Positions 44,590 through 55,252 of a stretch of DNA of 64,000 nt are shown here, piece by piece. Within the stretch, counting starts at the first letter, position 1. Each line of letters begins with the position of its first letter. Both the position numbers and the translations under genes were made by a program. The DNA lies in the NCBI GenBank assembly GCA_006218045.1, contig VBWB01000001.1, forward strand, positions 1-64,000, in the 5' to 3' direction. The stretch is from Stygiobacter sp. (GTDB lineage: Bacteria > Pseudomonadota > Alphaproteobacteria > Rhodospirillales > Magnetospirillaceae). Below the pieces are notes generated by a model. The model saw only the letters and a list, made by a program, of their open reading frames with translations. It was not told where the DNA came from and searched no databases.

Positions 44590-45393
44590 TCAGAACACCT
44601 TTTCCCACAGCGACAGCACGATCTCGAAGACGATCAGGAAGACGATGTACCATTCCACCCGCAGCGAGCGGCTGGTATGGACAAGGTCGAGCAGGGTTTC
44701 GGCGGTGTCGCCGATGACTTCCAGCTTGTGATCGAGGGCGCGCGAGCGTTCGCGGATTTCGTATTCGCGTTCCAGTCGCCCGAACAGCCCCTCCAATTGC
44801 GGCAGGTTCCACAGGGCTTCCGGCTTTTCCAGCACCTCGGCGCGTCCGACCATGCGGTGCTGGGTCAGCAACACGTCGCCGATCTGCGACAGCAATTCCT
44901 TGATCTTGAAATTGCGGCTGCCGTGGCGCTTCAGCCGTCCGGCCAGGGGCTCGACCCGGTCGAAGACGCCGGCGACGCGGACCTCGAAATGCTCCAGCAG
45001 CATGTCCTTGGCCAGCACGTCGGCCACCACCTGCATGCGTTCCGGCGTCAGTTCCGACATGATGATGGTGCCGTCGGGGTCCACATGCTCGGACCCGCCG
45101 GGGATGATGTCGATATGGGCCTGCTCGCGCCCCGGTTCGGCCAGCGGGTCGCTGACCAGCCGGGTGATGTCGGCCAGATAATGCGCCTCTTCCTCGGCGG
45201 TGACGTCGAACAGGACGACGACGCCATAGCGGAACAGCACGGCATAGCCCTTGCGCCCGACCCGCAGGGTCAGGGGCGTGGTGGCCAGCGCCTGGGTCAG
45301 TTCAAAACCGCGGATGTCCAGGCGTTCGCCCAGCAGGAAACCGCGCACGATCAGATTGTGCCGCGCCAGGGCGGCTGGGGATTCTTCACTCAT
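44590..45393 (-). CDS. RMD1/DUF155 family protein
   Basis: A 267-residue protein of the DUF155 family, related to yeast mitochondrial Rmd1. Features include GFLLGERLDIRGF near the N-terminus, a central helical region (ERMQVVADVLAKDMLLEHFE) and one C-terminal membrane anchor (WYIVFLIVFEIVLSL, about 245-262). Function in bacteria is unknown; eukaryotic relatives act in mitochondrial translation and microtubule control. Single gene, start at 45393. Confidence 0.88.
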   Translation of the reverse strand: MSEESPAALARHNLIVRGFLLGERLDIRGFELTQALATTPLTLRVGRKGYAVLFRYGVVVLFDVTAEEEAHYLADITRLVSDPLAEPGREQAHIDIIPGGSEHVDPDGTIIMSELTPERMQVVADVLAKDMLLEHFEVRVAGVFDRVEPLAGRLKRHGSRNFKIKELLSQIGDVLLTQHRMVGRAEVLEKPEALWNLPQLEGLFGRLEREYEIRERSRALDHKLEVIGDTAETLLDLVHTSRSLRVEWYIVFLIVFEIVLSLWEKVF

Positions 45394-46516: not shown

Positions 46517-46611
46517 GCATTCGGGCGGGAAAGATGGCGGGGAGGTGATTGATTTTTAACGCTTCAACGGGCATCCTCGGGCACGGTTTATCAGGATAAG
46601 GATCGGGCGGG

Positions 46612-49503
46612 ATGGGTGAGACGACGCAGCGGGATCAGGCCGACGACCGTGCCGAAACCGAACAGGCAGTCCTGGTGGCCGAAAAGCCGCCGATTTTGAT
46701 GGCCGAGCCGCCGGTTTTCCCCCCCAAGGCGCGGCGCAAGAACACTCAGGCTGCCGGTCGCATGGTCCGCGTCGTCAATGTCGCCGCCGGGCTGTTGACG
46801 TTCATCTGGCTGGGGTTCTGCGGCCAGTACGTCAATTCCAATATCGGTTGGGATAACCTGATGGCGTTGCAGCCGCAGGAACTGGGCGGCATTGTCGGTG
46901 CCGCCTTTGTCCCCGTCGCCCTGTTGTGGATGGTCCTGGCCTGGCTGGATCGCGGTCGGGCGATGCGCATCGTCGCCCAGGAACTGGACGACCATCTGCG
47001 CCGCCTGACGTATCCGTCCGATGAATCCGAAGTCCGCATCAAGGCGGTGTCGGATTCGCTGCTGGCGCAGACCAAGGCGCTGACCGACGCGTCCGAACGT
47101 GCCGCAAGCGACGCCGACAAGGTGCGCGGCTTGTTGGCCAGTCAGATCGACACTCTGTCGTCGGTGCTGGGCCGCGCCACCGGCGACGCCCGATCGGCGG
47201 TGGATGCGTTGAAAGGCGAGGTCGACCGGTTGACCCATGCCGCCGATGCCGCCACCACCCGGGCGCGCGAAATCGAGCATCTCCTGCGCTTGCAGACCCA
47301 GGAGCTCAACGTCGTGACCGAGAATGCCGCCCACAGGGTGCGCGAGTTCGGCGATTCCCTGCACCAGCAGGCCGAGGCCATCGACCAGACCTCGAGCCGG
47401 GCGGCCCAGCGGGCGGAAATCATCTCGACCCAGATCGCCAAGCAGGCCGAGGCGCTGGACAAGACGTCGCAGATCGCGGTGGTGCGGGCCGAGCAGGTCG
47501 GCCAGATTTTCAGCGAACGGGCGGCGGCTCTGGCCGAAGGCGCCAGCAAGGCGGCGGAAAGCACCGAGGCGGTGGCCAGCACCCTGTCGCAACGGGTCGA
47601 GGCTCTGGAGACCCTGTTCAACCGTCAGAACACCGATCTCGATCAGGCGGCGGTTCGTCTGGCCGAACAGACCGGGCGCATCAGCCAGTCGCTGCAACAG
47701 CAGGCCACCGGCCTTGACCAGATCACCGACCGCGTGCTGTCGCGCATCCGCATCGTCGAGGAAGCCTTGTCGGTGCAATCGCGCGAAGTGTCGTCGGCGT
47801 CGGATCAGGCCATGAATCGCTTCCGCGAGATGGAAGAGGTTCTCACCCGCCACGCCGAGCAATTGCGCACCACCTCGGACGAAGCCGCCGCCCAGATGGG
47901 CGAGGTGGGCGAGGTCTTCGCCCAGCGTCGCGACGACGTGGATCAGGCGGCGGAACGGGCCGGTGGTCGCGTCCGCGAAACCGGCGAACTGTTCCAGTCG
48001 CAGGCGCGCGCGCTGTCGGCGGCTTCCGACCAGATGCAGGCCCGTGCCCGCGAAGTGTCGGAAACCCTGCGTCTGCATATCGAGGATCTGGGCAAGGGGG
48101 CGGAACGCGCCGCCGGTCAGGCCGATGCCATTCGCCAGTCCCTGCGCAAGCAGGCCGACGAACTGGCTGACGCCGCCAACGTGGTGTCGACCCAGTCGCG
48201 CCTGTCGGAAGCCTCGCTCAACCAGCAATCGCGCCATCTGATCTCCACCTCGGATCAGGTCATGGCCAAGGTCAAGACCATTTCCGATACCCTGCGCCAG
48301 AACACCAACGATCTGGTGGCGGTGTCGTCGCGCGTCGGCGTCGAGCTGGAAGCGGTGGGCGAGGGCCTGCGCCAACGCACCATGGAAGTGGGCTCGGCCG
48401 CCATCAAGGCGGTGGCCGACACCGCCGGTGTCTCGGAAATGCTGGAACAAAGGTCCGAACAGATGGGCGGCATCGCCGAACAGGTGGCCACGCGCTTGCG
48501 CGGCACCATCGACGCCCTGCGCCGGCAGACCGAGCAATTGGTGGCCTCCGCCGACCAGACCCAGGTCAGCGTCACCGCCGTCGGTGAGAAGCTCAAGGAT
48601 CAGACCGAAGCGGTGGCCCGCGCCGCCGATGATTCGTCGGAAGTGTTGCAGGCCTTCGGCCAAGCCATCGCCAAGCACGCGGTGGAAGTGGGCGACGCGG
48701 CGCAGCGGGTGTTCCACAATTCGCAGACCGCCGGCGACGCCATGCGTCAGATCGTCCGCGATTTCGAGGAATCGTCCAACAAGACCGCCGGTCAGGTCAC
48801 CGCCGCCGGCGACATGCTGCGCGCCGGTATCCGCGATCTCAACCAAGCTTCCGAACGCATCACCTCGTCGGTGCGCGCCTCGGGCGATTCGTTGCGCCGT
48901 TATGCCCTGGAATTGCAGGAATCCACCGACCGCACCGGGGCCAAGCTGGAAACCTCGTTCGAGGTCATTCGCCAGAAATCCAACGATCTGGGCGTCACCG
49001 GCGAAAGATTGTCGCAGCAGGCGGAAAACCTGGCGGCCACCTTCGGGCGCCAGATCGACGAGTTGGTCAGCGCCTCGAAGCTGGCGGAAATGCGGGCCGG
49101 GCAGATCGAGGAACGCCGCGCCAGCGCCTCGGTCGAGCATTTCCTGCGCAATGCCGCCTTCATCGTCGAAAAGCTGCAATCGCTGTCGGTGGATATCGGT
49201 CGCATCTTCGCCACCAATATCGACGAAAAGGCTTGGCGTGAGTTCCATGCCGGCGATCAAAGCGTGTTCGTGCGCAAGATTCTCAAGAACCTGGATAAGC
49301 ACCAGATCGCCGCCATCAAGAACAAGTACGAGGACGATGGCGAGTTCCGTGAATACGTCACCCGCTATCTGGCCGAGTTCGAGGCTTTGCTCAATCAGGC
49401 GCGTCAATCCGATTACGCCGACGTCCTGACCGGCACCTTCACCTCGTCGGAAGTGGGCAAGCTGTATCTGGTGGTGGCCCGGTCCCTGGGCCGGTTGGAA
49501 TAG
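46612..49503 (+). CDS. Membrane-anchored giant coiled-coil protein with 29 repeats of 25 residues
   Basis: A 963-residue protein. The N-terminal tail (1-50) is acidic then proline/basic. Two membrane segments lie at about 54-73 and 91-112. Repeats start at residue 127 and run to 837: units of exactly 25 residues with a hydrophobic residue at positions 6, 10, 13, 17, 20, 24 and 28 (=3 of the next unit), i.e. a 7+7+11 coiled-coil pattern. Units 0-8 start at 127+25n and units 9-28 at 338 onward; the only phase break is one 11-residue step. A helical C-terminal domain (838-963: VEHFLRNAAFIVEKLQSLSV, DKHQIAAIKNKYEDDGEF) looks globular. The architecture recalls TipN of Caulobacter and the curvature factor CcfM of Magnetospirillum; identity with either is not shown. 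It starts at the ATG at 46612 after GGCGGG. Single gene. Confidence 0.9.
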   Translation: MGETTQRDQADDRAETEQAVLVAEKPPILMAEPPVFPPKARRKNTQAAGRMVRVVNVAAGLLTFIWLGFCGQYVNSNIGWDNLMALQPQELGGIVGAAFVPVALLWMVLAWLDRGRAMRIVAQELDDHLRRLTYPSDESEVRIKAVSDSLLAQTKALTDASERAASDADKVRGLLASQIDTLSSVLGRATGDARSAVDALKGEVDRLTHAADAATTRAREIEHLLRLQTQELNVVTENAAHRVREFGDSLHQQAEAIDQTSSRAAQRAEIISTQIAKQAEALDKTSQIAVVRAEQVGQIFSERAAALAEGASKAAESTEAVASTLSQRVEALETLFNRQNTDLDQAAVRLAEQTGRISQSLQQQATGLDQITDRVLSRIRIVEEALSVQSREVSSASDQAMNRFREMEEVLTRHAEQLRTTSDEAAAQMGEVGEVFAQRRDDVDQAAERAGGRVRETGELFQSQARALSAASDQMQARAREVSETLRLHIEDLGKGAERAAGQADAIRQSLRKQADELADAANVVSTQSRLSEASLNQQSRHLISTSDQVMAKVKTISDTLRQNTNDLVAVSSRVGVELEAVGEGLRQRTMEVGSAAIKAVADTAGVSEMLEQRSEQMGGIAEQVATRLRGTIDALRRQTEQLVASADQTQVSVTAVGEKLKDQTEAVARAADDSSEVLQAFGQAIAKHAVEVGDAAQRVFHNSQTAGDAMRQIVRDFEESSNKTAGQVTAAGDMLRAGIRDLNQASERITSSVRASGDSLRRYALELQESTDRTGAKLETSFEVIRQKSNDLGVTGERLSQQAENLAATFGRQIDELVSASKLAEMRAGQIEERRASASVEHFLRNAAFIVEKLQSLSVDIGRIFATNIDEKAWREFHAGDQSVFVRKILKNLDKHQIAAIKNKYEDDGEFREYVTRYLAEFEALLNQARQSDYADVLTGTFTSSEVGKLYLVVARSLGRLE

Positions 49504-49511
49504 GTTTCGGC

Positions 49512-49629
49512 CTAGTGGAAAAATCTGACATTTGCGTCCCACGCAAAAGTCAGATTTGTTTCCACAATTCAATAAGTTGGTGGTCCGACCCAGGCGCTTG
49601 GGAACCAAGCGTCTGGGTCGGACCACTAG
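49512..49629. mobile_element. 118-bp palindromic MITE-like element flanked by CTAG
   Basis: Two long hairpins: GTGGAAA...TTTCCAC (49515-49565) with inner AATCTGAC/GTCAGATT and TTGCGT/ACGCAA, and GTGGTCCGACCC...GGGTCGGACCAC (49580-49626) with GCGCTTGG/CCAAGCG inside. A 14-nt AT-rich link joins them. Both ends read CTAGTGG / CCACTAG, so CTAG may be a four-base target duplication. No ORF inside. It lies between the coiled-coil gene and the hybrid kinase. Confidence 0.75.
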
Positions 49630-49742: not shown

Positions 49743-54077
<4,335 letters not shown>

Positions 54078-54094
54078 GGATTGGGAGGGAGAGC

Positions 54095-55252
54095 GTGGAT
54101 ACAGTCGAAAGGCTCACGATCCTGGTGGTGGACGACACTCCCGACAATCTGGCGGTGCTGAGCAGCCTGCTGAAGGACGATTATCGGGTCAAGGTCGCCA
54201 GCAGCGGCGAAAAGGCGCTGAAGGTGGCCGCCGCCGCCAATCCCCCCGACCTGATCTTGCTGGATATCATGATGCCGGGATTGGACGGCTATGACGTCTG
54301 CCAACGCCTGAAGCTGAACCCGGCGACGCGGGACATTCCGGTGATTTTCCTGACCGCCAAGAGCGATGTGGATTCGGAACGGCGCGGGCTGGAATTGGGG
54401 GCGGTGGATTACATCACCAAGCCGATCAGCCCGCCCATCGTGCTGGCGCGGGTGCGCACCCATCTGGAACTCAAGGCCGCATCGGATTTCCTGCGCGACA
54501 AGAACGAATTTCTCGAACACGAAGTGGCCAAGCGGACCGAGGAAGTGGTGGCCATCCAGGACGTGACCATCCTGGCCATGGCCTCCCTGGCCGAGACGCG
54601 CGATCTGGAGACCGGCAACCACATCCGCCGCACCCAGTTCTATATCAAGGCTCTGGCGGACAAGTTGCGCGACCACCCGCGTTTTGCCGGACAATTGGAC
54701 GATTACGCCATCGATATGCTGTTCAAATCGGCGCCGTTGCACGATATCGGCAAGGTGGGCATCCCCGATCGCATCCTGCTCAAGCCGGGGCGTTTCACCC
54801 CCGAAGAGTTCGAGATCATGAAAACCCACACCACCTTGGGCCGCGAGGCCATCGAGCACGCCGAGCACGCGCTGGGATCGAGGGTGGAGTTTTTGACCAT
54901 GGCCAAGGAAATCGCCTTTTCCCACCAGGAAAAATGGGACGGCAGCGGCTATCCCCAACACTTGGCCGGCGATGATATCCCGTTATCGGCGCGGCTGATG
55001 GCGGTGGCCGATGTCTATGACGCCCTGATCAGTCGTCGGGTCTACAAGGCGGGGATGAGCCATGAGGCGGCGGTGGCCATCATGGTCGAGGGCCGTGGCA
55101 GCCATTTCGACCCGGATATTCTGGATGCTTTTCTGGAGATCCAGGAGGAATTTCGCCAGATTGCGCTGAGGCACGCCGATTCCGCCGCCGACTTGGCGAG
55201 AAAGCAGGAATTGCTGGCACAATCCGGTGCGGCATGCAGCGAAAAGGAATGA
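54095..55252 (+). CDS. Response regulator with HD-GYP c-di-GMP phosphodiesterase domain (first of two)
   Basis: About 385 residues. A receiver domain at about 1-125 (TILVVDDTPDN; Asp in LILLDIMMPGLDG; Lys in YITKPISPP) is followed by a coiled coil and an HD-GYP domain. That domain carries HDIGKVGIPDRIL, HTTLGREAIEHAE and HQEKWDGSGYPQHL, complete for metal binding and c-di-GMP hydrolysis. The GTG at 54095 has a strong GGGAGGG site 5-7 nt before it; the ATG at 54074 overlaps the kinase stop (ATGA) and adds seven residues. It is in one operon with the hybrid kinase and a second, closely similar gene. Confidence 0.94.
   Translation: MDTVERLTILVVDDTPDNLAVLSSLLKDDYRVKVASSGEKALKVAAAANPPDLILLDIMMPGLDGYDVCQRLKLNPATRDIPVIFLTAKSDVDSERRGLELGAVDYITKPISPPIVLARVRTHLELKAASDFLRDKNEFLEHEVAKRTEEVVAIQDVTILAMASLAETRDLETGNHIRRTQFYIKALADKLRDHPRFAGQLDDYAIDMLFKSAPLHDIGKVGIPDRILLKPGRFTPEEFEIMKTHTTLGREAIEHAEHALGSRVEFLTMAKEIAFSHQEKWDGSGYPQHLAGDDIPLSARLMAVADVYDALISRRVYKAGMSHEAAVAIMVEGRGSHFDPDILDAFLEIQEEFRQIALRHADSAADLARKQELLAQSGAACSEKE

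Follow-up and report, generated by a model that had tools for sequence, protein, structure and literature searches.

The stretch of DNA analysed here (hereafter, the window) comprises 64,000 nucleotides of Stygiobacter sp., corresponding to positions 1 to 64,000 of contig VBWB01000001.1 in assembly GCA_006218045.1, and it harbors on the plus strand the gene of a membrane-anchored coiled-coil protein of 963 amino acids (aa), to which its own genome yields only one match. The gene and the parts of its product are distributed as follows:

46612..49503, plus strand: coding region, with its stop codon, of the membrane-anchored coiled-coil protein of 963 aa (open reading frame)
46612..46746, plus strand: residues 1-45, poorly conserved N-terminus, perhaps disordered (mean conservation 0.45, 1 of 45 positions invariant)
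46765..46821, plus strand: predicted transmembrane helix 1, about residues 52-70 (hydropathy centre 61; hairpin alignment)
46822..46890, plus strand: short conserved loop between the helices, residues 71-93, IGW.NL..LQP.E.GG (alignment)
46891..46947, plus strand: predicted transmembrane helix 2, about residues 94-112 (hydropathy centre 103)
46990..47589, plus strand: eight coiled-coil units of 25 residues, residues 127-326 (cut of the preliminary description; phase model)
47590..47622, plus strand: single 11-residue phase step, residues 327-337 (same cut; phase model)
47623..49122, plus strand: twenty coiled-coil units of 25 residues, residues 338-837 (same cut; phase model)
49123..49500, plus strand: C-terminal domain, residues 838-963, the best-conserved part, common to a Sinorhizobium meliloti protein of RgsE length (45 sequences agree in 51 of its 126 columns)

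The two membrane helices and the separate terminal domain announced in a preliminary description of this DNA are both found in this arrangement, the former as predictions and the latter as a conserved C-terminal domain, and the loop between the helices presumably lies on the periplasmic side. Residues 127-837, when cut at the positions of that description, comprise 28 units, each exactly 25 residues long, and a single hendecad of 11, so that the 29 units it had counted are reached only if the hendecad is counted as well. In the hydropathy autocorrelation of residues 127-862 over lags 1-119, lag 25 was the highest (0.50), followed by lags 75, 50 and 100, whereas 500 shuffles never exceeded 0.163 at any of these lags; hydropathy showed its Fourier peak at 3.57 residues, which equals 25/7. 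Among the 72 frames of at least 300 aa in the window, the 963-aa frame ranked first at lag 25 (0.384), its antisense shadow second and the third reached 0.11, and in the same genome two stretches of SMC arm gave lag-25 values of -0.12 and 0.01. Additionally, a Viterbi phase model found over residues 127-837 a single phase jump, of 11 residues at about residue 328, where the lone step had been placed (between residues 327 and 338), with a score of 615, whereas 20 shuffles reached at most -49; since this model was trained on units of the protein's own family, cut at the same positions, its result is a consistency test. The exact 25-residue spacing initially noticed is confirmed. The core positions of each unit, occupied by hydrophobic or small residues, are 2, 5, 8/9, 12, 16, 19 and 23, a 3-4-3-4-3-4-4 spacing that corresponds to 7+7+11. 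This pattern predicts a long continuous helical coil between the hairpin and the C-terminal domain, which may form a rigid rod of fixed pitch. On the minus strand, an antisense frame of 1,011 aa (window 46591-49626) mirrors the period of the gene (lag 25 = 0.286), probably as a by-product of codon composition.

Within the host family, 50 of the 55 genomes, own included, contained a match; the named genera among these hits are Magnetospirillum, in which a homologue search had been suggested, Phaeospirillum and Paramagnetospirillum, and the rest are metagenome-assembled genomes of Rhodospirillales or Proteobacteria. An alignment was built from 45 distinct sequences, own included, leaving out open reading frames shorter than 850 aa, locus L029 and identical frames. 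These sequences are 46-100% identical to the query, so the little sequence identity initially described holds between units (21.7% at lag 25) and not between orthologues. From residue 105 to the end, the sole indel is a 4-residue deletion at 222-225, found in 9 of the 45 sequences, all of one clade, where the phase model reads a 21-residue unit. The 11-residue step was placed at residues 326-335 in 44 of 46 orthologue rows (the query counted twice), the other two rows reading 7+4, and three of the 46 rows showed one extra phase jump near either end of the array, with no indel there. In genome G344, from another family of the same order, an 11-residue step lies 628 residues from the C-terminus, compared with 635 in the query. 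The spacing is therefore not free to vary in the host family. However, the preliminary description had taken such exactness to imply a rigid rod, perhaps a ruler, and SMC in the same genomes nearly matches it: in 10 of them, whose SMC proteins are 57-95% identical to that of the host, 0-3 indel events were counted over 1,128-1,131 aligned residues, against 0-1 events over 855-859 residues for the 963-aa protein at 52-96% identity. Strict length alone is consequently no proof of a ruler, since SMC rods are nearly as length-strict. One orthologue (G028:C14:173581-176425) is split into two overlapping frames by a frameshift or sequencing error, and L002, called in a wrong reading frame, was disregarded.

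The C-terminal domain extends well beyond this family. Its profile (A2) matched 147 of 387 evenly drawn alphaproteobacterial genomes, in open frames of 377 to 2,752 aa, some of them cut by contig ends, and 83 of the 397 genomes of a phylum sample, all 83 listed as Alphaproteobacteria or nearer; the share of that sample belonging to other classes is not given. A search of plasmid records with the C-terminal part of the window protein returned six records, four from Sinorhizobium, one from Shinella and one from Sphingomonas. The 963-aa protein appears to be the Magnetospirillum-family member of a class-wide alphaproteobacterial family, and the spirillum-only shape ruler initially proposed does not survive the class-wide presence of the domain, which includes Sphingomonas and Sinorhizobium. 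No Pfam or NCBIfam family reached its cut-off for the whole protein, and no convincing Pfam match to the C-terminal domain was obtained in 21 members.

The nearest known proteins found are RgsE and, through RgsE, GPR, neither of which the preliminary description had named. The C-terminal part is 37% identical over 117 aa (E 2e-17) to the product of the S. meliloti coding sequence LZK74_25975, whose 2,089 aa equal the published length of RgsE (SMc00190), a homologue of Agrobacterium GPR (PMC7327166). In a two-sequence search, the domain profile matched residues 1973-2087 of this product (E 4e-26), and two transmembrane helices were predicted in it, at 128 and 161. The S. meliloti record is labelled pSymB though it measures 3.7 Mb, and LZK74_25975 is annotated there as 'kinesin'. 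According to the RgsE authors, distant RgsE homologues occur in Rhodospirillales, perhaps with another role, and Rgs proteins were reported in polar growers mostly without MreB (PMC7327166). Their homologue survey kept only lengths within 50% of RgsE, a filter that, by our arithmetic, would remove the 963-aa protein. GPR of A. tumefaciens (Atu1348), with 2,115 aa, two N-terminal transmembrane domains and a helix of 1,700 aa, was described as forming a hexameric 200-nm ring at the growth pole, and its loss results in round cells (PMC8262873). When its last 10 residues are removed, paired foci remain but function is incomplete, and removal of its 221 C-terminal residues gave the strongest complementation failure (PMC8262873). 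The broad GPR/RgsE traits, namely two transmembrane helices predicted near the N-terminus, a long coil and the domain at the very C-terminus, are all recognizable in the sequence of the 963-aa protein, which makes it a shorter, 25-register member of the broad RgsE family, linked to GPR via RgsE. On the other hand, the traits of the polar-growth members (about 2,000 aa, a PF01442 match above cut-off and an 11/22 register) contrast with its 963 aa, its 28.8 bits against a cut-off of 90 and its register of 25, and it is not a GPR/RgsE of polar-growth type.

The register was also followed in the rest of the class, using 80 relatives from other families than that of the host, drawn from the 147 class genomes with a match; five of them, without an upstream hairpin because the frame was cut or unresolved, were kept in the counts. 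The overall plan of the protein recurs in this set: the hairpin profile matched 62 of the 80 at about 1e-3 or better. Lag 25 was the top lag in 37 relatives and the top lag was a multiple of 25 in 54, whereas lag 25 came within the top five in 72 and exceeded the maximum of 100 shuffles in 74. Coil length was fixed in some families: 805 in three genera of f91, 717 in two genomes from a single f34 genus, and 731 in two from a single f15 genus. In families f51, f98 and f119 it varied. Unit spacing is thus constrained in the host family, while rod length and unit number vary widely across the class. Longer unbroken 25-residue arrays were observed in L131 (an open reading frame of 1,655 aa), with no phase jump over about 1,189 residues, and in L100 (1,350 aa), over about 704. 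The lowest lag-25 values among the 80 belonged to L176 (0.04), L177 (0.09) and L162 (0.10), with top lags of 22 and 44. MreB (TIGR00904) was above cut-off in the genomes of 75 of the 80 relatives (4 of 7 plus 71 of 73), and in the own genome. It was below cut-off in G418, G290 and G357, the hosts of L162, L176 and L177, and also in G172 and G236, which are 91-92% complete and whose tested family mates have MreB. The host mreB match (G000:C46:183778-184772) comes in two overlapping pieces, frames of 300 and 108 aa, perhaps owing to a frameshift or assembly error. In a domain tree of 92 rows, from which some near-identical host-family loci were left out, and which has few alignment columns, an unsettled bootstrap and many deep forks still open, RgsE, L162, L176, L177 and L066, five members with an 11/22 register, form one clade (99/86). 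L066 (L066:2948-8134), a relative of 1,729 aa with an 11/22 register that groups with the RgsE clade, lies in a Magnetospirillum-genus genome with 4% contamination, probably on a contaminating contig.

The 963-aa protein is probably a GPR/RgsE-type membrane-anchored envelope or polarity scaffold, built as a shorter, 25-register rod and placed in an MreB-containing cell. Kinship with RgsE and GPR suggests the scaffold function in envelope growth or polarity, and the succession of hairpin, long coil and conserved C-terminal domain supports the scaffold-type architecture of the preliminary description. In such a protein, the hairpin would anchor the molecule in the inner membrane, with the remainder in the cytoplasm, and the coil would self-associate into a rod of about 105 nm (711 residues at a rise of 0.1485 nm per residue) and twist slowly in a left-handed sense, at 25/7 = 3.57 residues per turn. 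The distance between the anchor and the C-terminal domain could be fixed by this rod, and that domain may recruit or position envelope-growth or polarity factors. The task would be, as for GPR/RgsE, to organise a membrane zone, be it pole, septum or growth zone, here in an MreB-bearing cell. Searches of the open-licence literature turned up neither an account of this protein nor any mention of a 25-residue register for its family. GPR and RgsE are known from work on polar growth in Rhizobiales; a domain for which Pfam has no model, present in 147 of 387 genomes, ties them to short rods in MreB genomes, which makes the origin of the growth-pole ring testable. Additionally, an exact 25-residue unit with a kept hendecad provides a natural rod whose length can be altered in register-keeping steps, allowing a direct test of whether rod length matters.

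Several observations weigh against this interpretation. The tie to GPR runs through the published RgsE-GPR homology, and the role proposed for the short members is drawn from sequence kinship. In the two-sequence search, the hairpin profile landed on the two helices of LZK74_25975 at only E 0.001, a marginal value, and the RgsE coil gives lags of 11, 22, 33 and 44 compared with 25 in the 963-aa protein. The C-terminal domain model, built with 17 sequences, is all-helical and of low confidence (predicted local distance difference test score 62, predicted template modelling score 0.49), and a fold search with it returned no convincing match. The domain is also absent, by profile search, from five of the 55 host-family genomes (G006, G009, G015, G032 and G053), with the matches of the same profile in the class and phylum samples as positive control, so the protein would be dispensable in some. 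Finally, its own apolipoprotein match lies far under the cut-off.

An evolutionary extension of the scaffold interpretation is possible, though doubtful. The 25-register rod could be the ancestral envelope-positioning scaffold of MreB-elongating alphaproteobacteria, which, on MreB loss in the Sinorhizobium lineage and relatives, would have been lengthened and re-registered to hendecads (11/22/44), becoming the growth-pole ring of GPR/RgsE. In its favour, the three relatives with the lowest lag-25 values cluster with RgsE and their genomes lack MreB above cut-off. However, L114, L117, L119 and L122 reside in MreB-containing genomes with lag 11 on top, L142 and L122 are as long in such genomes, and f13 combines MreB with a weak lag-25 signal; the link between MreB and register therefore rests on one clade. 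MreB loss and register change coincide once, in that clade, which is no statistical test of the link. In this history, how far the scaffold reaches would depend on the length of the rod.

Among the alternatives to a GPR/RgsE-type scaffold, the one that fares best, although unlikely, is that of an apolipoprotein-like, lipid-binding amphipathic protein lying along the membrane, as proposed for GPR, instead of a self-associating rod. PF01442 is the only Pfam match of the 963-aa protein (E 1e-6), the giant relative L066 exceeds its cut-off with 190 bits, and GPR itself was classed as an apolipoprotein, with such matches spanning about 75% of its length (PMC8262873). Nevertheless, the protein's own score remains below the gathering cut-off, and the narrow 3-4-3-4-3-4-4 stripe, with about 7 of 25 positions hydrophobic or small, is typical of a coiled-coil core. 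Still less probable is a CcfM-related protein that determines curvature specifically in spirilla: the named close relatives, besides metagenome-assembled genomes, are Magnetospirillum, Paramagnetospirillum and Phaeospirillum, and CcfM was described as a membrane coiled-coil protein along the inner curve of the cell, but the family is class-wide and includes Sphingomonas and Sinorhizobium. Orthology with TipN, to which the preliminary description had also pointed, is very improbable. Most alphaproteobacterial genomes are said, in work on TipN of Caulobacter (PMC4460556, PMC5182065), to lack it, compared with the presence of the domain in 147 of 387. A homologue search had been suggested for Caulobacter, and in the 40 genomes of a family inferred to be Caulobacteraceae the domain profile found nothing at E 1e-3 (best E 1.4, in one). 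That family was recognized through a protein 66-67% identical to C. vibrioides MipZ (E 1e-95 or better) in three of the 387 class genomes; TipN itself was not aligned directly. An anti-phage motor tail protein resembling ZorA can hardly be entertained, given that the NCBIfam model of ZorA scores only 14.8 bits, with a cut-off of 190, and covers nothing but coil (122-276), the Pfam scan showed no MotA/ExbB-type domain, and the scanned neighbours encode a radical-SAM protein, DUF155, a hydrolase, a hybrid kinase and an HD-domain response regulator. Membership in the SMC family was rejected at 13.1 bits against a cut-off of 729.4, likewise on the coil only.

Regarding the neighbourhood, the next gene upstream in the window, on the opposite strand, encodes an alpha/beta hydrolase, and two genes upstream, also on the opposite strand, lies a DUF155 (RMND1/Sif2-Sif3) gene (window 44590-45393), which was found nearby in 14 of 35 host-family loci. 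Directly downstream, positions 49743-55252 encode a hybrid histidine kinase with PAS, two receivers and its own Hpt domain, and the end of this gene overlaps an HD-domain response regulator gene; a full-length hybrid kinase was found beside the scaffold gene only in L064, the nearest relative. Of the 118 loci searched, 20, including the two query records themselves, carry an Hpt-domain gene upstream of the family gene and on the opposite strand. These cases (L208:1602-1970, L209:1998-2291 and 18 other loci) belong to Sinorhizobium, Sphingomonas and several further families, and none of the 20 is a host-family locus. In the Sinorhizobium and Sphingomonas annotation, the Hpt gene is the next gene. 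A phosphorelay link between the Hpt gene and the scaffold is possible.

Among the known systems compared with the 963-aa protein, TipN differs in that the profile search of the 40 genomes of its inferred lineage did not detect the C-terminal domain. SMC is likewise a long coiled coil in which indels are nearly absent across the same genomes, but the 963-aa protein has only sub-threshold coil matches to SMC, and the tested SMC arm stretches lack the lag-25 register. CcfM of M. gryphiswaldense, set beside it by description only, is a membrane coiled-coil cytoskeletal protein from the same genus (PMC9512821, PMC11628618, PMC11344931), and differs in that the family of the 963-aa protein is class-wide. 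RgsE is more than twice as long (2,089 against 963 aa) and has an 11/22/33/44 register instead of 25, and Rgs proteins were reported in polar growers mostly without MreB, while the host genome has an MreB match; in common are the homologous domain that ends both proteins, the pair of transmembrane helices predicted near the N-terminus and a long helical coil. GPR differs in its 2,115 aa and its extensive apolipoprotein matches; on the other hand, its two N-terminal transmembrane domains, its long continuous helix and a C-terminus that is needed for function resemble the plan of the 963-aa protein.
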